Positions 4,801 to 58,225 of a DNA stretch of 64,000 nucleotides are shown here, one piece after another. Made by a program: the position numbers and the translations under genes. The stretch is from Pseudobdellovibrionaceae bacterium (lineage in GTDB: Bacteria > Bdellovibrionota > Bdellovibrionia > Bdellovibrionales > Bdellovibrionaceae): positions 1-64,000 of the forward strand of contig JAKFYD010000003.1 of the NCBI GenBank assembly GCA_021731025.1, written 5' to 3'. Position 1 is the first letter of the stretch; each line of letters opens with the position of its first letter. The notes beneath the pieces are model-generated. The model searched no databases and was not told the DNA's origin. It saw only the letters and a program-made list of their open reading frames with translations.

Positions 4801-5221
4801 CTTAGAATACGACCCCTACGAAGAGCGAAATCCTGATCACGTGGCGGGAACTTGGAAGAACGGAAATTACTATCCCTGTCTCAGCGACATCCTCAGCGGG
4901 CTTTTTGATTTTGCAAAAAGTTATCCCAGCAAAGATAAGAAAGACCAGGTTCGTTGGATGACGAAAGTGCTGATGTATCTGGATAAAAACATGTCGCAAA
5001 AAATGCTTTTAAAATTATTGGGCGAAGAGAATTACATTTTCTTAGTTCGCATCAATGGTTTTAGAACCGGTGATGAAGACGGGGACTTAGAGTTTTTCTC
5101 GAACACTCTTGGGGATCCGACTCAGAACATCGACTACGCCAATGGGCTTTTCAATTATTATGCGGGTAAAACACGAATTTCACCCATCGAGCTGGACCGT
5201 TCACAGGGGAGTTTCCGATGA
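1820..5221 (+). CDS. large exported protein of unknown function, 1133 residues
   Basis: Starts with GTG at 1820, preceded by GGGGG at 1811-1815. The N-terminus (MPLKIIIFVACAFMALSLAEA) is a Sec signal peptide cleaved near AEA. The mature protein is rich in aromatic and charged residues with few cysteines. I recognise no family, catalytic motif or repeat. It overlaps the downstream subtilase by ATGA (5218-5221), so the two are translationally coupled and of almost equal length (1133 and 1135 residues). The coupling suggests that the two exported proteins work together, for example as protease and substrate, chaperone or partner, but that is inference. Codon use looks like that of its neighbours. 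Confidence 0.7.
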   Translation: MPLKIIIFVACAFMALSLAEAQSVSIPLKTVKKPSSDLLHASGKKLDVGEASALAQRGEDLSLLDPQPNKLWQNQKYPAVDTANLKYPEAQAGVQYLSDEASMLGTFMGRVQSRQNPDAFFRMSISRFSQSALMRAALLRKLGYYLPSPKSYRNLRVFFKDETEKEKFLNDAQMPPVLNDFDSRKWVLENDKKNHSVVLADAVLEPSTAEYFDLQWGFAPNPANPKQLPFVQLLSTGRTYRALIIPYALVDVPESVNRYSPKFASILSGHIVITHPSADSFGAVTYEDLRWLVRRMTAWTKQDYMEIVQAAGYPLELQGLVYAKMMYRVRDLFQVLKLKTAQPIQLPHLNITSPSGLIKNGKVTKEFVPGYPQRFSHGDRESPIKDGDFQRYLTIQGKTSILASVLAEFSKRLQIFTTEKAGEKRIEQIRDRVTNHIRTKPREPLYQQVEAWGGPLGGFNIYATRHVSSGTYNESSATIQLVDNLSVAASLGYFFAIDGLPMVRPGGGGNVSVMRDYTHVRPLLSIAEGTKVEWKNLLIPVFMKKLAQVLKSTEPVAGANPDEPKREALDAFLADLREGEVFTITDSIALSAYAQISASFDVLMGITPLSVINSIALGADASRVILRQTSITRSKEGIQVYVRDQNSKIFGATFDVNLFVNILKYRAQVQYTDLHTDAFIIDYNPEYASMIDSSQTEQRFVKDFVHTRDNLKPALLALFAQNETEFLYSRFDHKRFDLTHKFKTQENKLSLLWYKASQFVEDHLVKIQYPRDPTAPELKPADEEVVLFSNKSGELEGTDIVGFTLESLERVLNHFTPKFQFNLEAPVSPNPANVPFGSAYWRIVNSEADLSTKVEAFPDVSIIQHVWGGWGMKTKDFYQIIDVVTGKFIGADPTDPPLINKAEFAMMKSIDFYRITANLSILPGGLEKLKNFILQPKAKAVPKPSTWGGLGRVLSFDFTGTPRPGDIALYNQYISLLGDGNPKKGEELYKKYCHLEYDPYEERNPDHVAGTWKNGNYYPCLSDILSGLFDFAKSYPSKDKKDQVRWMTKVLMYLDKNMSQKMLLKLLGEENYIFLVRINGFRTGDEDGDLEFFSNTLGDPTQNIDYANGLFNYYAGKTRISPIELDRSQGSFR

Positions 5222-8200
5222 AGAACTTTTTTGTCTGGGGATTGTTAGGGTTTTTGTTGGGATCAACTTCTTTCGCTTCGACTTTGCGTGAAACCGCTAT
5301 ACTGAGTCTTCAACGAGGCTCGAAGGTGTCGACGAAAGAGCTGATGAAAGTTTTAAAACATTCGTCAGTGATGAATGCCCGAGAAGTTTTTCATAAACAG
5401 GATCGCGAGTACCTTAAAGGAATCAAGGCCGAGCATTTAGCCCAATCTTGGGTTGTCGAAGTGAAAGATCAAAATTCTTTTTTCGAACTCGAACGCTACA
5501 TTCATCGTCATGCTTTACCTTTGAATTTAGAGCTCAATGATTTGGATGTGAAAATACAAAGTTCGACTTTGAATGATCCTTTTTCCAATTTACAGTGGGG
5601 CTTAAACAATTTAGGTGTTTCCCAAAATATCGATTTAGATCCTACAAAAACTTATCGTGTTCCCGGTATTGCCGGTGAAGATGTGCAGTATCCAGAGGTC
5701 TTAAGTTCCCATGGAATTTCAGAAAAAAGAAGTATCATCGTTGCGGTGATGGATACGGGAATTGATAAGAATCATCCCGATTTGAAATCTGTTTTAGTTC
5801 GCAAAGAATCAGAGTGTAAAGCTCTCGAAAAATTCTTAAAGTGTGCCGAAGACGGTGATCGCAAAGAGTGCGAGAAAAAATGGATGGATCTTAAAAATCC
5901 CGAAGTTGATCAAGATAAAAATGGTTACCCCATGGACTGCGAAGGTTGGAGCTTGCTTGGGGGAACTAATTTCGCAAAAATTATGGGACGCCCTGATTTT
6001 ACCGACGAGAGCGGACATGGCACTCACGTTTCAGGCATCATCGCGGCCATAGCAAATAACAAAGTCGGCGTTGCGGGCATCACTCAAAAAGTAAAAATCC
6101 TTCCTATACAAGTTGTGGGTGTACAACCCTCTGAGCCGATTAAGCCTCTCTCGGTGGATTTAAATCCTAGCGAAGAAGTTATCGCCGGAAAGAATCGCAG
6201 CTTAGGGGATCTTGTCGCTCGTGGAGTCATCTATGCTCTTCGTTCTGGTGCTCAAGTGATTAACTTTAGCATGGGATGGCCTCAAGCTCGTGATTCTGAA
6301 TTCATGAGACAGGTGATTGAAGAAGCCCAACGCCAAGGTGTGATCATCGTGGCGGCCGCAGGGAATGATTCGACTCGTGCGCTGTTGCGACCTTGCGCCT
6401 ATCCTGGTGTTATCTGCGTTGGAGCTCATGGTCCCGATGGAGGACTGGCCCACTTTTCAAACTATGGAAGTGGAGTTGATATCGCGGCACCGGGAGTTAA
6501 TATTTTATCAACGAGCACTTTGGAAAAACGCCCGGTTCGTTTTCGTTCGACGGCAGGCTACGATTATCTTTCGGGGACATCACAAGCTTCTCCTTTTGTA
6601 GCGGGGATCGTTGGCGAATTTTTAGCCAAAGGGATTTCCCGTGAAGAAATATTTCCCCGCCTTGTTCTTGGAGCTCGTCCCTTGAAAAAAAGCCAAGCTT
6701 TATTTGAAGGCTTCCCTAATAATGTTGAAAAGGTTTTGCCGGCCGAAGCTCATCCTTACCAAAAATATCTTTTGTCGGGATTAATGGACGTTAAAAATTC
6801 ATTGAAAGTGGCTCCACAAGCTTTAATTCTTCCGAGCTCAAAAGAAACAGTGGAAATTCTTTGGGATCGAAAAAGTGCCGTTTTGAAAACAAAAATTCCT
6901 TTAAAGAATTTTTGGAAAGATATTGCCTCCAGCGAAGTTCAAATTAAAGCCAGCTTTGTCAAACCAGACACTGAATCTGTTCGCCCACGAGTCACTGCGG
7001 TCAAATTCAATGGCGGAGCTGTCTGGAAATCAACAGAATCTCGGGACCTTGAAGTTGAAATGGTCATTGATGATAATTCTGATCCTTCACTAAGCCGTTT
7101 GCCCAGCGAACTGGATCTTCATTTAGACATCGCGGTGGCTGGTCAACGTCGGCGAGTGGTGATCAGCACCGAGGTTTTGGTAACTGTAAGTACCAACTTT
7201 ACCGGCGCCGATGTGATGCGTTTACCCCTAACAGGAATGCCGACCGGTCGTACTGAGTTCGTACCGGTTGACGAGAGCTGGGATTCCCATCCCACAAAAC
7301 GAGACTATTTAATCACTTCTCAGCAACAAAAAAAATGGCAGATTTGGTTGGCGACTCAAGATGGAAATTCCATGAATTCTCCGTATCGCTTAAGCGCTCC
7401 GGCGAAAATCACTGTGGAAGGTGAGGATGATAATCTTCGCACTCAGATCTTGGCGCGAATCGCCCGGGGTCCTCAAGGGCAGCTTCAGTATGTCTTGGGT
7501 CTCTTCGAAGACAATTCGGGGGAAGCTGAAGCAAAACCTTCACCGATGACTTTCTATTTTTTCGATCCGCAAATGAAATTGCTCGATAGTTTTGTTTACA
7601 AAAGCGATCGGGCACAAATCCCCTATCAAGTCTATTGGCAGAATATAGACGGAACGAAAATGCCTTGTTGGATAGGTGCCGGTAAAAAGCCAAAGCCCAA
7701 AAGAGGTCTAAAAGATCGATGGGAAAACCCTGAGGATATCGAGAAAGAAGAGCTTCGATTTTATTATCTCGATGGCAAAAAGGTTCTGAATGCTCTACAG
7801 GCCTACGAGGATTACAAGATCGTAGATATTGTCGAGCCGACTCAAGAACAAAAAGCGAATGGTCGCGTCCCCGTGTTGCTCGCTAAGAATGCAGGCACCG
7901 AGGCTAAGCCTTCCTATATTTATGAATTTGCCGTCGCCGAAGTCATTCAAGGTAAGGTTGAAAACTTTAAAAAAATGGACTTCTTTGGATCTCTGAAGAA
8001 ATACCGTAACCTTTTGGACACACGTGTAGACAAAGTTAATTCCTTGGACCCCTCCAACGAGCAGTTCCGGGGATCCTTTTGGTTTTCCGAAGGGCAACGT
8101 CGCCAACAAAGAATTTCACTTTTTGATCAAAAGAACTTTGAGTTTATCGATCAAGAGCTCGCGGCTTTAAACGGCTTATACGATTCAGCTCTCTGGGTGA

Positions 8201-8625
8201 GGGCTGCTTTTTATGGAAAAAATCGTAAAGGTGCCTTTGTATTAACCAACAGTGAAATTCAGTATCATGATCTCGTGAACGAAAAAGCCACAAGCCGAAG
8301 CATGGACCGGTATACTTTTTTCCCCGATAACTTCATGACCAATGCCTATTTCCCCTTAGTTTTAAAAGACAATCGGGTGGGCTCGAGCCACATCCCCGCT
8401 TTATTCACAACTGAGGCTTCGGAGCTTAACCGTGGTGTCAAAATGGTTGTGCCTTTTTTTGCAAGTGATGGACGAGTGATTGAATTGGTGTCACCGGCTC
8501 GGCTCAGGTTCAAGACCAACGCAGGTTGCCGGCCAGTGAGTACCCCCGTTTTTTTAGGTGAGAAAGCTTACGCTTTCGACTATTACTGCGGGAGCGAAAT
8601 TATAAGGATTCCGTTAAGCTATTAA
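5218..8625 (+). CDS. large exported S8 subtilisin-like serine protease
   Basis: A 1135-residue protein with a signal peptide (MKNFFVWGLLGFLLGSTSFA), a prodomain-like stretch up to about residue 170, then a subtilase catalytic domain. Asp179 lies in VAVMDTGIDKNHPDL, His267 in GHGTHVSGIIA, the oxyanion Asn383 in AAAGND and the nucleophile Ser455 in SGTSQASPFVAG. All key residues are present, so activity is likely. An insert with four cysteines lies between Asp and His. About 600 further residues follow that I do not recognise; they may be beta-rich domains for substrate binding or surface anchoring. Its ATG overlaps the stop of the preceding gene (ATGA), and the lipoprotein gene begins 45 bases downstream. 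Confidence 0.9.
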   Translation: MKNFFVWGLLGFLLGSTSFASTLRETAILSLQRGSKVSTKELMKVLKHSSVMNAREVFHKQDREYLKGIKAEHLAQSWVVEVKDQNSFFELERYIHRHALPLNLELNDLDVKIQSSTLNDPFSNLQWGLNNLGVSQNIDLDPTKTYRVPGIAGEDVQYPEVLSSHGISEKRSIIVAVMDTGIDKNHPDLKSVLVRKESECKALEKFLKCAEDGDRKECEKKWMDLKNPEVDQDKNGYPMDCEGWSLLGGTNFAKIMGRPDFTDESGHGTHVSGIIAAIANNKVGVAGITQKVKILPIQVVGVQPSEPIKPLSVDLNPSEEVIAGKNRSLGDLVARGVIYALRSGAQVINFSMGWPQARDSEFMRQVIEEAQRQGVIIVAAAGNDSTRALLRPCAYPGVICVGAHGPDGGLAHFSNYGSGVDIAAPGVNILSTSTLEKRPVRFRSTAGYDYLSGTSQASPFVAGIVGEFLAKGISREEIFPRLVLGARPLKKSQALFEGFPNNVEKVLPAEAHPYQKYLLSGLMDVKNSLKVAPQALILPSSKETVEILWDRKSAVLKTKIPLKNFWKDIASSEVQIKASFVKPDTESVRPRVTAVKFNGGAVWKSTESRDLEVEMVIDDNSDPSLSRLPSELDLHLDIAVAGQRRRVVISTEVLVTVSTNFTGADVMRLPLTGMPTGRTEFVPVDESWDSHPTKRDYLITSQQQKKWQIWLATQDGNSMNSPYRLSAPAKITVEGEDDNLRTQILARIARGPQGQLQYVLGLFEDNSGEAEAKPSPMTFYFFDPQMKLLDSFVYKSDRAQIPYQVYWQNIDGTKMPCWIGAGKKPKPKRGLKDRWENPEDIEKEELRFYYLDGKKVLNALQAYEDYKIVDIVEPTQEQKANGRVPVLLAKNAGTEAKPSYIYEFAVAEVIQGKVENFKKMDFFGSLKKYRNLLDTRVDKVNSLDPSNEQFRGSFWFSEGQRRQQRISLFDQKNFEFIDQELAALNGLYDSALWVRAAFYGKNRKGAFVLTNSEIQYHDLVNEKATSRSMDRYTFFPDNFMTNAYFPLVLKDNRVGSSHIPALFTTEASELNRGVKMVVPFFASDGRVIELVSPARLRFKTNAGCRPVSTPVFLGEKAYAFDYYCGSEIIRIPLSY

Positions 8626-10458: not shown

Positions 10459-11553
10459 TTAAATGCCCTGAGGAGAATTTAAATTAAATTTAACGAATTG
10501 AGCATCCAGAAATGTTTTTTCTGGAATAAAATTCGCGTTTTTAACCGAGCGACCCGAGGCCGAAATAAAGCGATCCTGAGAACGCAACGACCTTAAAATA
10601 TTTAATCGGCCAATGCCTTTCACCATCATCAGCTGAGGTAATCCTTGATCTGAAGTCTTTGTCAGCTGCTCGATGAGCTGCCGAGGTTCCGTCAGCCAAG
10701 GTTTGTGTTTCAATATTAAAGCAGCGATCCCTGCGGTCAGTGCCGTTGCCTGCGATGTCCCACTCATGAGTCCGAATTTTTTCTGAGGCAATGTTGATTT
10801 CAGGTTTTCCCCTGTCATCGCCAAACGAATTTGCGGGCCATAATTGCTGTTGCTTAAAAGTTGATGGTGCTGATTTAAAGCAGCCACGGAAAGTATGTGA
10901 GGCTGATTGTAACTGGCCGGGTAGAATGGAAATTTATCGGTAGAGGCTCCTTCATTTCCAGCAGCGGCAACGATCAGAACATTTTGTTTCAAAGCTCGGC
11001 GAATGATTTCTTCTTCAGTTTTTGATTTCTTAGATCCACCTCCTGAAAAATTAATAATTCGGGCGCCTTGATCAAGAGCGTATTTAAAGGCGCGCACGGA
11101 ACTGGACAAAGTATCATTCAATGGAAAACTTTGATCAAAATACTTGAGGATCATTAGCTGAATCGGGGGACAAAGTTCTTTTTGATAGGAACTGGGCCAA
11201 TATTTTGTTATCAGCCCACTGACGTGAGTGCCGTGCCCATGTTGATCTTGAATCTCCGAAGAATTTTTAACAAAATTCCATCCATGGAGGTCATCGGCAA
11301 ATCCGTTGCCATCATCATCAAAACCATTACTCGATTTATCACGCCCTAAAGAATCTAAACCTGATTCGCCGGGGTTGGTCCAAATCCAGTTTTTTAATTC
11401 AGGATGTTCCGAATCAATTCCTGTGTCGATCACGGCAACAAGCAATGTTTTTTCCCCAGAGCAGGATGAAGTTGAAGCAAGCGTTTGCAAGCTACAAAGG
11501 AAAAGACAAAAAAAGACGGTTAAAAGCCAAACAAGTTGTAAGGAAAGTTTCAT
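10459..11553 (-). CDS. exported S8 subtilisin-like protease
   Basis: 364 residues, close to the length of a minimal subtilase without long extensions. Signal peptide with hydrophobic core LVWLLTVFFCLFLC. The catalytic set is complete: Asp43 (VAVIDTGIDSEHPEL), His107 (GHGTHVSGLI), Asn200 (AAAGNEG) and Ser267 (SGTSQATALTAG). The propeptide is very short or missing, since the catalytic Asp comes only about 15 residues after the probable cleavage site. The gene overlaps the preceding RHS-like gene by ATGA (11550-11553), implying coupled translation. The protease may process or accompany the RHS-like protein; this is inferred from gene order only. Confidence 0.9.
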   Translation of the reverse strand: MKLSLQLVWLLTVFFCLFLCSLQTLASTSSCSGEKTLLVAVIDTGIDSEHPELKNWIWTNPGESGLDSLGRDKSSNGFDDDGNGFADDLHGWNFVKNSSEIQDQHGHGTHVSGLITKYWPSSYQKELCPPIQLMILKYFDQSFPLNDTLSSSVRAFKYALDQGARIINFSGGGSKKSKTEEEIIRRALKQNVLIVAAAGNEGASTDKFPFYPASYNQPHILSVAALNQHHQLLSNSNYGPQIRLAMTGENLKSTLPQKKFGLMSGTSQATALTAGIAALILKHKPWLTEPRQLIEQLTKTSDQGLPQLMMVKGIGRLNILRSLRSQDRFISASGRSVKNANFIPEKTFLDAQFVKFNLNSPQGI

Positions 11554-52915: not shown

Positions 52916-54616
52916 TCAGAGTTGGTCGAAGAAATAGCGTTGTAAAATAATATCCAATAAGCCCATCGCGGGTTGTAAGGATGTTATGTCCGATATTTTT
53001 GTCGCCAATGTTGAGATATCAGTCTGGAATTGTGTCACAAGATTGCCTGTGAAATTGCGATTGAGAATCACATGAGCAATCTCTCCCTGCAGTCGCATAG
53101 ACTGGGGGTGATGATTGTAGCTCATTATCCATGACGCTAGGCCATCGACAGTCATAAATTTGCTGTGAAGTGTGGCTCCCTGTTTCAAATAAACCTCTGC
53201 ACCGAAACGATACAGATCATCCAACGCTCGAAGTATAGGTTTTCCAATAATGGGAACATCAATGGAATTTGGAGAGTTTGTAAAAATGCGGACCTTGACT
53301 CCTCTTTTCAATGCGCGAATCAAAGCTTGGTTCATCGCAGGATTTTTAATAAAGTACGCATTCTCAATATTGATTTCTGTTGTAGTCCCTTCGACTCCCT
53401 TGATAATGCTTGCGAGTATGGGATCTCTGACTTCAGGGTTTGGAACTTGATCTATCGTCATAATCAGGGGACCGTTCTGATTTTCCGTTGAGACGTGTTC
53501 TTTTAAATCAAAAACTAATTTTGTGTAGGGAAGATTATTTTTATCGACTTGGCTGTTCCAGACTTCGATGAAAACTTTCTGAGTGTCAATCGCTGCATTG
53601 TCGTTGGCATAGAAATCGGTGTCACGCCACTTTGGTGTAGCTTCGGGTCCCATATGACTGTAGACATCACCAAAATTCATTCCGCCATCAACGAGATGTC
53701 GGCCATCGACGATCATCGATTTTTTATGAAAGGCATACATAGGGAATTCGAGATCTTTCCATTGAATTATCGGGACGCCTTGCTCTTTCAACCAAGCAGG
53801 AACAGCGCCATAAATTTCTTGTTGAGCTGTTTTATTGTCGACGATAATGCGCACATCGCGTCCCGCTTTATGTTGAGCTGCTAGGAGTTTAGCAAATTTC
53901 CAACCAGTAGTGTCCTTTTCAAAGGCCCACGACATAACGTAAATGCTTTTTTTAGCCTCACTGATAAGTTTTTCTTTTAAGGGAAATGACTGAGGTCCAT
54001 CCACAAGAAGTTTGACTTCCGAAGACCTTCGAAATTTTGATTCAGCGACAAGTTCTAATTCTTTTATAAAATCCGAATTTTCAAAGGCAGAGGAGTGGCC
54101 TGGTCCACGGGGAGGAACCAAGGTCTTTTGCGCAGATTTTGCAATTTTTCGACAGGCTTCAAGCCATGAGATGTATTTGTTTTTCGATTTTTGACTGAGA
54201 TTTTTGGCTATGAACTGGTGCTCAATCATCGTAGTCAATTGGTCTACCGTCTCGGTTAAATTCTCTTGAGTGAAGCGCGCGGGGAGTTTACCCATATCCA
54301 ATAATTTTTGAGCGAGAACGCTCAAAACAGGTTTTAGTTTATTTTCTCCGGAAAGCTTAGCGATAAGTGGCATTAATGAGTCAAGGCTTTTAATGATCTG
54401 GGCCTGTTGCGATTTATCTTGAGCAAGAAGGAGAAGCTGATCTTTAAGAGACATTTGTTGAGGATTTAGCTGAGGAGAAGTAAAAACGGATTCACATTGA
54501 GAATTCGTGGTCGCGAGACAACGTTGCTTCGACGAAGAGCTTTGCGTTTTAAAATGGGTGCAAGAGCTTGCGAATATTAAAAGACCTATTGGGATGATGA
54601 AATTCTTTTGTAACAT
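52916..54616 (-). CDS. phospholipase-D-like lipoprotein
   Basis: 566 residues. Lipobox LLIFASSC gives a lipid-anchored N-terminus. Residues 60-240 are helical. Two HKD motifs make the catalytic phosphatidyltransferase core: HKKSMIVD near residue 300 and HSKFMTVD near residue 500, both complete HxKx4D. PLD-like enzymes hydrolyse or transfer phosphodiester bonds of phospholipids or nucleic acid; substrate unknown. The start at 54616 is chosen because it gives the signal peptide; the longer open frame upstream is out of character. The gene sits between the two copies of the duplicated lectin-like domain. Confidence 0.85.
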   Translation of the reverse strand: MLQKNFIIPIGLLIFASSCTHFKTQSSSSKQRCLATTNSQCESVFTSPQLNPQQMSLKDQLLLLAQDKSQQAQIIKSLDSLMPLIAKLSGENKLKPVLSVLAQKLLDMGKLPARFTQENLTETVDQLTTMIEHQFIAKNLSQKSKNKYISWLEACRKIAKSAQKTLVPPRGPGHSSAFENSDFIKELELVAESKFRRSSEVKLLVDGPQSFPLKEKLISEAKKSIYVMSWAFEKDTTGWKFAKLLAAQHKAGRDVRIIVDNKTAQQEIYGAVPAWLKEQGVPIIQWKDLEFPMYAFHKKSMIVDGRHLVDGGMNFGDVYSHMGPEATPKWRDTDFYANDNAAIDTQKVFIEVWNSQVDKNNLPYTKLVFDLKEHVSTENQNGPLIMTIDQVPNPEVRDPILASIIKGVEGTTTEINIENAYFIKNPAMNQALIRALKRGVKVRIFTNSPNSIDVPIIGKPILRALDDLYRFGAEVYLKQGATLHSKFMTVDGLASWIMSYNHHPQSMRLQGEIAHVILNRNFTGNLVTQFQTDISTLATKISDITSLQPAMGLLDIILQRYFFDQL

Positions 54617-54747
54617 GCTTAAGTATCGGATCGAATAGCCCTTTAACCCCATTGGACAAAGGTTTAGATTCAAGGGAATGAAGAACGCCGAGCAGTTGAT
54701 CAATAAAGGCCCAGCTATTTCCGGGCCTTGTATTTCATTACGAGAAA

Positions 54748-55362
54748 TTATCTTTTTATTGCTATGACCGTATGATCCCAGTAATGAGCCCATTCGTAAG
54801 TGCAAGTTCGTCCCTGCAACAGGCAGCTAGTACCATCCCAAGCGTGGTTAATGCCGAACTCTTCGAAGCCTCCTGGACTGATGTTCACATTCAGGTTACT
54901 GCTTGTAAGTTGACCATCAACCCAGACTTTAACGATACCATCTTTCGTTGCAGGGCCTGTGCTCGCTTGAAGAAAAACTTCCAGCTTATGCCAACCACTT
55001 CCAGGCATGACATTCGCTGCCGCTGCATTGACATTGGGGGAAAACCAACCTGTGCCATCATGGTTAGCTCCAACAGTGTTCCAACATCGATCATAGGCAG
55101 CGCCAGGACCAAAGTTCGAAAGATGACAGTTATCAACTTGTCCTTGTTGGTACCAGCGAATCTGTTTTGAATTAGTGATCCCAGGATTTCCATACCAAAC
55201 AAGAAAACTGTTATCACCGCTGTTTCCAGCATTAATGAAAAACATTTTGTTAGCGTTATTAGCAAATCCTTCGAAAGTTGAATTGGTACTCCACCACATT
55301 CCCACGTAAACTTGTCGTGCATAACTTAATGGGTAGTTCCAAACTCCATTCCCTTGAGCACT
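54748..55362 (-). repeat. 615-bp direct repeat, copy 2
   Basis: Second copy of the lectin-like domain sequence. It is open to its natural stop with 88% protein identity to copy 1 but has no start of its own. Confidence 0.85.
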
Positions 55363-55807
55363 GTAAGATGGTATTCTGTGAGAGTGTTTTAGTGTTCCTT
55401 TTAATTGTCACCAAAGCGCCAGAAGTTGTCCCTCCGCCACATGAAGAATTTAGATCGTACACTCTCCCAGTAATGGCTAATTGTCCTTTGCCTGGAGAAG
55501 TAAATCTAAGCACTGCATCCGCAAGATTACCGGGATGCATATAATCACGGCCAATGAGCAAATAAGCTTCAGAAGCGGCCTTCATGGTACCAACGGAGGA
55601 ATTATAAACCATGGTTTCGTTTTTAGTCGTGGTGTAGGAAAAGCCACGACCCGTATTAAAATCAGTTAAAGCTTGGTAAGTGATTGTTTGGGTCTGTGCC
55701 TGTACTTGCAAAGAGAAGCTCATTGCAAGCAGAAATGGAAGAAGAAAACCAGATTGCCAATTTCTTCTAAAGAACCTCACATAGCTACTATTAAGACGTG
55801 AAATCAT
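54748..55807 (-). pseudogene. out-of-frame fusion: CBM-like N-terminus joined to duplicated lectin domain
   Basis: The ATG at 55807 (GGGGGG upstream) starts a signal-peptide protein (LPFLLAMSFSLQVQA). Its N-terminal domain has HPGNLADAVLRFTSPGKGQ and QLAITGRVYDLNSS, as in carbohydrate-binding modules. At 55362 the sequence becomes the 615-bp repeat, but in another frame. The first frame therefore ends at 55259 in junk while the lectin domain continues open in the other frame to 54748. One frameshift would restore a full-length protein. Either the junction is a recent deletion or the fusion needs a frameshift to be expressed. Confidence 0.7.
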
Positions 55808-56330
55808 ATTCCCCCCGGAAGTTGTCAAGCTTTCGCATCAAAGATAAAAAATAGAAATGCATTCGAGTTTTGCTTTTGATGAATAGTTAGTATAGGAAGG
55901 AAATATACTTTAGTTACTACACAAAATGGCGTGATCCTGTATCAAAATAAGATATTGTTTAGATTATCGTCTCAAAATGAAATGTTTTAGACGCGAAAGT
56001 CAGTTAAAGTTTCTATCAAATTAAATAAAACTAAAGCTCATTTACTTTCGGTTTGAAGAAAGTTTAATAAGATTTTTTAGTCGTTTGATTCTGAGATGCT
56101 AGAATTTAAACCAGAAGAATTGCTGTCGCCCGAGCTTTCGAAGGCGAACCAATTGGTATTATTCGTTACAAGCTTCGCGGAAGAGATCGTCGTCCGTAAG
56201 ATAAATCCAACTTGTTAGATAATAGCATCGTGCCATTTTTTAGGATTGGGTTAAGATTCCGTGTTGTTTCCGTTAACCCCCTTGTGCATTTCATATTTTC
56301 GATAACAAATATGTGCACGGGGGGTGGCTC
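55808..56330. other. 523-base intergenic region with repeat motif and orphan coding scrap
   Basis: Contains ATCGTCTCAAAATGA at 55966-55980, an exact copy of 25202-25216. A 29-codon open stretch at 56110-56199 (IAVARAFEGEPIGIIRYKLR) lacks a start and may be a gene scrap. GGGTTAA (56248-56254) and TTAACCC (56273-56279) form a loose hairpin before the 56331 gene. The rest is AT-rich and shows nothing clear. Confidence 0.4.
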
Positions 56331-56651
56331 ATGAAAATTATTTTATTATTAGCTTTATTTTGTACGGCCTGTTCAGAGGGAATACCAGTCTTTGGAATCA
56401 ATAACGATGGAGAAGTGCAAGAGATTGCTGTAGACCCAGAGATTTATTCTGAAGAAATGGGGAAGGTTGTTCAAGGGCTTCAAAAGAAAACCTTACCGCT
56501 TCTCGAAAAGAAAGCAAAAACAGGTCAACTGACAACCGTCGCGGTGGGCGTGGGAATAGTGGCTCAAGCGGGAATTGGTCCCTACAGAGTCTCGGCAGAG
56601 CCCAGAATAAGATTTCTTATCTCAAATAAAGACATTCCAGTAATTCCTTAA
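56331..56651 (+). CDS. small lipoprotein with one copy of a shared repeat
   Basis: 106 residues. ATG at 56331 with a GGGGGTGG ribosome site; lipobox LALFCTAC. The C-terminus (TTVAVGVGIVAQAGIGPYRV SAEPRIRFLI) is the same kind of repeat as in the next two genes: a hydrophobic/aromatic strand pair ending in a basic RIRFL-type strand. The spacing of 12 bases to the next gene indicates an operon. No family recognised; the repeat may form beta strands. Confidence 0.65.
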   Translation: MKIILLLALFCTACSEGIPVFGINNDGEVQEIAVDPEIYSEEMGKVVQGLQKKTLPLLEKKAKTGQLTTVAVGVGIVAQAGIGPYRVSAEPRIRFLISNKDIPVIP

Positions 56652-56663
56652 GGGAGAACACTC

Positions 56664-57926
56664 ATGAAATATATTTTAATTTTTATTCTTTTTTTCAGTT
56701 TTCAAGTCTTTGCGTCCGAGGTCTCTTACCAGGTGCCCTCTTCATGGTTAACGGCCGAGGAAGAAACTTACCAGATTTTCGGACAATCACCCCAAGCCAC
56801 AGACGAAAAATTCAATCAGGGAACCGACAAAATTTTGCAAACGGTTTTAAATCCGCTGAAACAAAGTGCGAATGAAAAATCCTGGAAGCTCAATGGAGTG
56901 ATGTTTGATTTAACTGTCTCTTCCCAGGGAACCTTAGGTTTATTGGCTATGAAAGGCGCACCTTCGGCCACGATTGCCTGGATTAAAAAGCCAAAAACTA
57001 AACCTGCGGTCGTTAGCCAAGAAGAAGGACCTGATTCCGGCTATGCAATAAATATCAATGAGAATGTCGATCGTTCAACAGATTCATTGGTCAAAACTTT
57101 AATGAGTACAGGACAAGTTAAAAATGAAGCCCATTTGCGTGAAAATTTAACTCGAGTGGTTTCATCGTTTAAAAATTTGACCAACGGAATTGAAACAACA
57201 AGCCAAACTCAATGGAGTTTAAGTCGATTACGACTGGATTTATCTGTTGGGGCCTCTGGCGATCTTTCGCCCTTTACCACTGTGGGGGGAGCCTTGCGGG
57301 TTCGCTTAGAGTGGTTTCCGCAAAAACGAAGTCAGAAAATTCAGCCGAACGAAGCTCAAAAAAATATGAACAACTTTTTTAATACAATGGTTCATAATTT
57401 AAGTAATTGGAATGGGCAGAACCAGCTTCTTGAACAAGGTTTAGAGCTGGCTCGAATTCGCGTTGGCATCGGACTGACAAGTCGATTTAATGTTGGGCTT
57501 GTCAGAAGTTCCGTGGGGACGGCCTTTCATGTTTACTTTGAAAAGAAGAAAATGACTTATCAGATTCAGACAATTCACCAGCCGACGCCGAGCCAAGCTT
57601 TTCATCAATTCGCTGAGGAATCATTGGATGACATCAATCAAAATTGGAATTCAATCCTACAAATTTCCAGTTCTAAGATGCTGACATCTAAGCCTGCTAT
57701 CAAAGATAAACTGTATGTGGTTGAGCCCGAGCAATTCTATAAAGGTTTGTCGAAATCAGCAAAGATTGGAAAATACTTTGTGCAAAGATCGAAAAAGAAT
57801 CTGGCTAATTCAGAATGGACTCTTCAACAAGTTAAAATTGGAACCGAGATATCGCTGACCGGAGCGCTTTCGTTAGCGACCTTAACCGGTGCTACAAGTT
57901 GCGAAATGACTTTTCAACCTCTGTGA
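56664..57926 (+). CDS. exported protein made of four copies of the shared repeat
   Basis: 420 residues with a signal peptide (MKYILIFILFFSFQVFASEV). Four copies lie at about residues 71-107, 181-217, 257-293 and 380-417, each starting W/L-x-L-x-x-(L/V)-x-(L/F) and passing through S-x-G-x-L/F to a closing V/L-x-W or F strand. Between the copies are charged helical stretches. Not a family I know. It probably assembles with the products of the flanking genes, which have one copy each. It shares the operon with 56331 and 57938. Confidence 0.65.
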   Translation: MKYILIFILFFSFQVFASEVSYQVPSSWLTAEEETYQIFGQSPQATDEKFNQGTDKILQTVLNPLKQSANEKSWKLNGVMFDLTVSSQGTLGLLAMKGAPSATIAWIKKPKTKPAVVSQEEGPDSGYAININENVDRSTDSLVKTLMSTGQVKNEAHLRENLTRVVSSFKNLTNGIETTSQTQWSLSRLRLDLSVGASGDLSPFTTVGGALRVRLEWFPQKRSQKIQPNEAQKNMNNFFNTMVHNLSNWNGQNQLLEQGLELARIRVGIGLTSRFNVGLVRSSVGTAFHVYFEKKKMTYQIQTIHQPTPSQAFHQFAEESLDDINQNWNSILQISSSKMLTSKPAIKDKLYVVEPEQFYKGLSKSAKIGKYFVQRSKKNLANSEWTLQQVKIGTEISLTGALSLATLTGATSCEMTFQPL

Positions 57927-57937
57927 AAAAGGAATTT

Positions 57938-58225
57938 ATGAAATCTTTAAACTTAAAGCTTGCTCTATTGCTCATCAGTTTTTCAATACTTGGCTCACTT
58001 AAAGTTGCTGCCGACTCGGGTGGCGCAATACAAGGTGAAGTCGTTGACTACGTGAATAAAAATATCGAAAAGGCCCTTGTCCCCATTTCTGAAAACGAAA
58101 CTTCGTTGATCGATTGGGAACTTAAAAGGATTCGAGTCCGTGTGCAAAGCCAGCTCGGAATTAAAATTCCTTGGGTGACAAGCTTTCAAGTTGTGCCCGA
58201 GGTTGAGTTTATTTTTGAGAGGTAA
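57938..58225 (+). CDS. small exported protein with one copy of the shared repeat
   Basis: 95 residues from the ATG at 57938, which has AAAGGA upstream; a start at 57899 would overlap the preceding gene. Signal peptide core LALLLISFSILGSLKVAA. The C-terminus (WELKRIRVRVQSQLGIKIPW, then VPEVEFIFER) is the repeat again. It overlaps the convergent 58209-60083 gene by 17 bases. Its last 29 bases recur almost exactly at 60274-60302 (27 of 29). Confidence 0.65.
   Translation: MKSLNLKLALLLISFSILGSLKVAADSGGAIQGEVVDYVNKNIEKALVPISENETSLIDWELKRIRVRVQSQLGIKIPWVTSFQVVPEVEFIFER

Follow-up and report, generated by a model that had tools for sequence, protein, structure and literature searches.

A Fixed-Order Gene Triplet of Bdellovibrionota Encodes Exported Proteins with Six Pepco-Type Units

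The gene triplet and its shared unit

The three adjacent genes described here (g1, g2 and g3 in 5'→3' order, 56331–58225 of the window, by which the whole analysed stretch of 64,000 nucleotides is meant) form a dedicated exported system, in which a homologous unit of the Pepco sequence family (PF24393) occurs once in g1, four times in g2 and once in g3. The sequence-only reading had proposed both the system and the copy numbers, and both were borne out. All three ORFs lie on the + strand, encode 106, 420 and 95 aa, and are separated by intergenic gaps of 12 and 11 bp. The exported product of g1 (56331..56651, +) resembles a lipoprotein and carries a single unit of class 1; its family HMM matches it at 1.5e-33, the window protein itself being among the HMM seeds. 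The product of g2 (56664..57926, +) is an exported protein with four Pepco units, identified by the Pfam search and an AlphaFold model, and that of g3 (57938..58225, +) is likewise exported and has a single, divergent unit (class 3; family HMM, 9.1e-26, again with the window protein among the seeds; g1–g3 hhalign probability, 96.7%). A signal peptide was found in the sequence at the N-terminus of g1, g2 and g3 alike, and g1 of the window has a lipobox-like FCTAC-S motif. By a simple rule, a lipobox is present in 20 of the 45 g1 proteins and 10 of the 50 g2 proteins, with SPI-like signals in nearly all of the others.

In a possible 5' leader stem-loop of g1 (56276..56325, +), a CCCCC run located upstream would base-pair with GGGGGG in the ribosome-binding site; the leader 56255–56345, analysed for the window sequence only, has an MFE of -25.6 kcal/mol (z = -2.5 vs shuffles). 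Upstream of the triplet, a - strand ORF (52916–54805) encodes PLD-like domains (PF13091; E-value, 1.8e-32), and two overlapping - strand ORFs of 189 and 185 aa (54748–55828), the 189-aa one with no Pfam match, could represent a single frameshifted exported protein. Subtilisin-type peptidases are encoded elsewhere in the window, at 5218–8625 (+) and 10459–11553 (-).

The segment of roughly 37 residues described in the sequence-only reading is a real shared stretch, but the true unit is about 60–70 residues long and consists of an amphipathic helix followed by the 37-residue hairpin. Unit 1 of g1 (helix and hairpin; approximate limits 56451..56624, +) was delimited by unit alignment and by hhalign against units a–d and 3, and unit 3 of g3 (approximate limits 58022..58222, +) by unit alignment and tree. 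In g2, the unit HMM places unit a at 56796..56990 (+; residues 45–109; Pepco HMM match, 56805–56957), unit b at 57111..57320 (+; residues 150–219; Pepco HMM match, 57114–57290), unit c at 57348..57551 (+; residues 229–296) and unit d at 57720..57917 (+; residues 353–418; Pepco HMM match, 57684–57914).

Profiles of units a, b, c and d and of the g1 and g3 families were compared by hhalign in all 15 pairs, with reversed-profile controls. The probability was 84–97% for 13 of the 15 pairs, the weak ones being g3 vs unit c (16%) and g3 vs unit d (36%). The reversed controls gave 1–48% for the 13 strong pairs and 0.2–48% overall, with the highest value (48%) for b vs d reversed, so that single mid-range values are not to be trusted, while the overall pattern is clear at the level of sequence profiles. 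Judged by these profiles, the six units across g1, g2 and g3 are mutually homologous beyond chance; the shared fold that had been proposed as a check is thus recovered as a shared homologous unit.

Relation to the Pepco and Trypco families

The sequence-only reading had left the repeat unrecognised, which did not hold: the unit corresponds to Pepco, a domain that is already catalogued in Pfam. The whole g2 protein scores 55.1 bits against PF24393 (E-value, 1.3e-14; curated cut-off, 27 bits), by a match that runs through several stretches; taken one by one, the single g2 units score under the cut-off. Pepco is matched by 29 of the 47 g2 homologues (E ≤ 0.05). The units cover approximately positions 31–110 of the 112-position Pepco profile, the first ~30 positions being unmatched in g2. 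Neither g1 nor g3 had a Pepco match in the Pfam search; they join the family by profile–profile comparison only, because they are too divergent for Pfam. Compared with Pepco as such, the triplet differs in distributing six fixed-order units over three exported proteins, without a consistent peptidase neighbour. No paper describing Pepco as a protein domain was found in the literature searched.

Known Trypco1 proteins are generally taken to be cytoplasmic. The likeness of the triplet to Trypco1 (PF19493) consists of weak matches in 3 of the 47 g2 homologues (best E-value, 1.7e-3) and in a two-unit variant, both proteins of which score 14.3–15.4 bits, under the cut-off of 24.6. At E ≤ 0.001, no Trypco1 match was obtained in 369 Bdellovibrionota genomes, and with an approximate query sequence none was found on plasmids. 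Trypco1 and Trypco2 were introduced by Kaur et al. 2020 as genes beside trypsin-like peptidases in conflict systems, and the name Trypco comes from these neighbouring trypsin genes (PMC7159879); a 2024 paper termed both adapter domains (PMC10907252). Whereas known Trypco1 proteins are found in conflict systems (PMC7159879), the proteins of the triplet are exported. The MoxR-vWA-VMAP ternary conflict systems (Kaur et al. 2020, PMC7159879) use the related Trypco1 as a small accessory protein; the triplet differs from them in its export, and MoxR and vWA are absent from its 25 most frequent neighbour families. In the case of Trypco2, real annotated genes were found on plasmids by sequence search, and eight of the encoded proteins were used for comparison. 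A helix followed by amphipathic strands is seen both in these proteins and in the units of the triplet, as judged by eye, but homology is undetectable: hhalign gave less than 3% for every unit class against the eight plasmid-borne proteins, and Trypco2 homology was rejected.

Fixed architecture and distribution

Across Bdellovibrionota, where conservation of the three-gene order had been suggested as a check, the order g1-g2-g3 on one strand is kept in all 52 loci read, with a median gap of 12 bp. The three genes are separate in 36 of these loci, and most of the others are fusions or are interrupted by contig ends. Fusion of g2 with g3 occurs in seven loci (L021, L074, L081, L083, L086, L089 and L093) and of g1 with g2 in one (L024), all of them end to end in the same gene order. 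Each intact g2 has exactly four units, a-b-c-d, a count taken from loci that were found through homology to this family itself. A tree of 274 units separates positions b, d and 3 without any intruder, position a with one intruder and position c with 46 of its 47 members; the best split for class-1 units joins class 3, and their nearest neighbour is always another class-1 unit. No recent unit duplications were seen in the loci read. Since the positions separate almost cleanly, the unit duplications predate the dispersal of the cassette, and the arrangement of the six units has stayed the same from then on in the loci read; on the sequence evidence, this arrangement is both ancient and invariant.

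The distribution of the cassette is patchy. A search with g2 only found seven carriers among the 148 nearest genomes. When 369 Bdellovibrionota genomes were searched by alignment, 45 (12%) proved to carry the cassette, and these belong to several families and to 31 of the 182 genera; a unit-level profile search of the same 369 genomes gave matches in 45 genomes, a nearly identical set. Among the unit-level matches listed, all lie inside cassettes except for a pair of genes for exported proteins resembling g1 (G187/G188) and one match in G014, which is near a contig end and fits the missing half of the broken cassette of that genome. In genus g7, for which many genomes are complete, the cassette is absent except in one (G060). 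A two-gene variant (L113:729-1489, L097:1081-1857) lacks g2 and g3 and encodes two exported Pepco/Trypco1-like proteins in tandem, each with a single unit. The g2 tree mostly tracks families, and exceptions such as L022, a member of family f1 placed inside family f16, suggest that some transfer may have occurred. A scan of named genomes with the window protein alone gave no match, and with four close homologues it gave four MAGs, carrying the labels Bacteriovoracaceae, Bdellovibrio sp. and Oligoflexia. No relatives were found on plasmids, and PADLOC gave no match.

Predicted structure, proposed complex and competing readings

The AlphaFold prediction of g2 with 8 sequences was too poor for use (pLDDT, 51.7), and with 47 sequences it reached a pLDDT of 77.5 and a pTM of 0.76. 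Units b, c and d are predicted as a helix of ~20–25 residues and two strands of 13–19 residues joined by a tight turn. The prediction for unit a resembles these, with low confidence near the hairpin tip. Column-wise, the composition of the hairpins shows a near-strict alternation of large aliphatic with polar or small residues, the tips are rich in Gly/Ser/Ala/Thr, and in units a and b tryptophan lies at the hairpin bases, with basic residues just outside. This alternation fits a hairpin packed on its helix and neighbours, and a membrane-inserting hairpin fits as well. Foldseek comparison of the g2 model with PDB and BFVD gave no match at E ≤ 0.001; matches to fluorescent proteins and RNA-phage maturation proteins were disregarded, as their TM-scores were near 0.1, and the sole match of a PDB sequence search (JUBO2, 9s82; E-value, 0.076) was taken as chance.

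Our leading reading, tentative and given slightly less than an even chance, is that the three co-expressed proteins contribute six non-equivalent Pepco-type units to one exported envelope complex, which would serve as an adaptor or regulatory platform. The envelope multi-subunit suggested by the sequence-only reading is thus the better of its two proposals, as judged by signal peptides, co-conservation and gene fusions, with the location after export being predicted. In such a complex, g1 (one unit, often a lipoprotein) would be the probable anchor, the scaffold would be g2, whose four units keep a constant order, and g3 with its single unit would act as the cap; the long amphipathic hairpins would pair between units, and 1-a-b-c-d-3 may close into one defined hetero-oligomer at the membrane. 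Co-assembly is inferred because of the fusions, the co-conservation and the correlated divergence of the proteins (r(g1,g2) = 0.74, r(g3,g2) = 0.70), although shared genome descent alone could produce such correlations. By analogy with Trypco1 relatives, the complex may act as a platform for some envelope activity, for which a GCS2-type ligase and a PepSY_TM membrane protein would be the likely partner in one subset of loci.

Other readings were weighed against the same data. Repeat fibres usually vary in length. Exported, beta-rich repeated units with long strands could suit a repeat fibre or surface appendage, the other proposal of the sequence-only reading, but instead of a variable number of near-identical repeats every intact g2 has a-b-c-d, the 1+4+1 number and order are invariant, each position is its own old lineage, and the loci read show no recent duplications. 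A single defined hetero-oligomer is favoured by this, and a fibre is very improbable. The hairpins may alternatively be stored against the helices and insert jointly, the six of them supplying the 12 strands of a beta-barrel pore, or they may make up a channel in the outer membrane. Twelve strands as a fixed set, alternation over nearly the full hairpin length, the composition of tips and bases, and strands of 13–19 residues, which exceed what a helix of 20–25 residues can cover, are consistent with membrane insertion. Soluble proteins, however, also pack amphipathic hairpins against helices, most g2 proteins do not end in the aromatic residue that is typical of outer-membrane proteins, their last columns being mainly polar, and neither a pore-forming or outer-membrane Pfam family nor a fold match was found, so we regard this reading as unlikely. 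A bolder version, an exported heteromeric machine in which the six units together make one closed ring or barrel of pseudo-six-fold symmetry and the hairpins can enter a membrane, is quite unlikely.

The gene neighbourhood bears on two further readings. In total, 93 nearby proteins match 129 Pfam families, with no family in more than two proteins, and a partner gene common to all loci was not found. The relation to Pepco/Trypco1-type domains and the origin of the Trypco name (PMC7159879) would suit a role in the periplasm, where the triplet would partner or inhibit secreted peptidases and could protect or regulate the many exported proteases of these bacteria, and 4 of the first 11 loci have subtilisins no more than ~6 kb away. 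In the 506 kb of flank around the remaining 40 loci, however, three subtilisin genes at two loci compare with ~2 expected (3.9 per Mb), which is background density, and the subtilisin coupling suggested by the first 11 loci was rejected. There is one trypsin-like gene in the 52 loci, and peptidase families are absent from the 25 most frequent of the 129 neighbour families. By contrast, a serine-protease gene directly adjoins trypco2 in 5 of the 8 plasmid regions read. The peptidase coupling from which the name derives was thus not found at the triplet loci, and a role as peptidase partner appears improbable. The remaining reading is that the triplet handles metals or thiol peptides in the envelope, with PepSY_TM, the GCS2 ligase and DtxR-type regulators as its true partners. 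Besides common families, the conserved-neighbour search returned only these genes: GCS2-type ligase and PepSY_TM, always both, at five loci (L022, L064, L071, L075 and L080) from four genera and two families, and, 78–90 bp downstream of the triplet on the same strand, a DtxR-type iron-dependent repressor (Fe_dep_repr_C and FeoA) at two (L058:7462-8280 and L060:7293-7994). That GCS2 and PepSY_TM accompany the triplet in three distinct gene orders speaks for a functional link in the lineages concerned. Such partners are present at 7 of the 52 loci only, with unrelated neighbours at the rest, and as a general role this handling is held to be unlikely. A protein-arginine deiminase (L061:5636-7066; PF03068, 3.5e-25) is encoded beside one copy of the cassette, and at another locus a single open frame joins a ferrochelatase to a major-facilitator transporter (L062:3981-6413).

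While the Pepco domain itself is catalogued, its exported, fixed six-unit heteromeric version is apparently undescribed in the literature searched. Trypco-type domains recur in bacterial immunity-like systems, and their physical role is undescribed in the papers found. If the ring or barrel reading were true, it would reveal what Pepco/Trypco1 domains physically do, in a machine derived from a domain related to small peptidase partners in bacterial immunity. Returning to the proposed envelope complex, the triplet is small enough for co-expression and structure solution, and the five-gene form with GCS2 and PepSY_TM offers the first testable functional lead. With six fixed positions of old, separate lineages, an assembly rule may be readable from the sequence. 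As far as the sequences indicate, a related domain appears to have moved outside the cytoplasm and to have become locked into an assembly of six parts, which is conserved across a phylum with predatory members.
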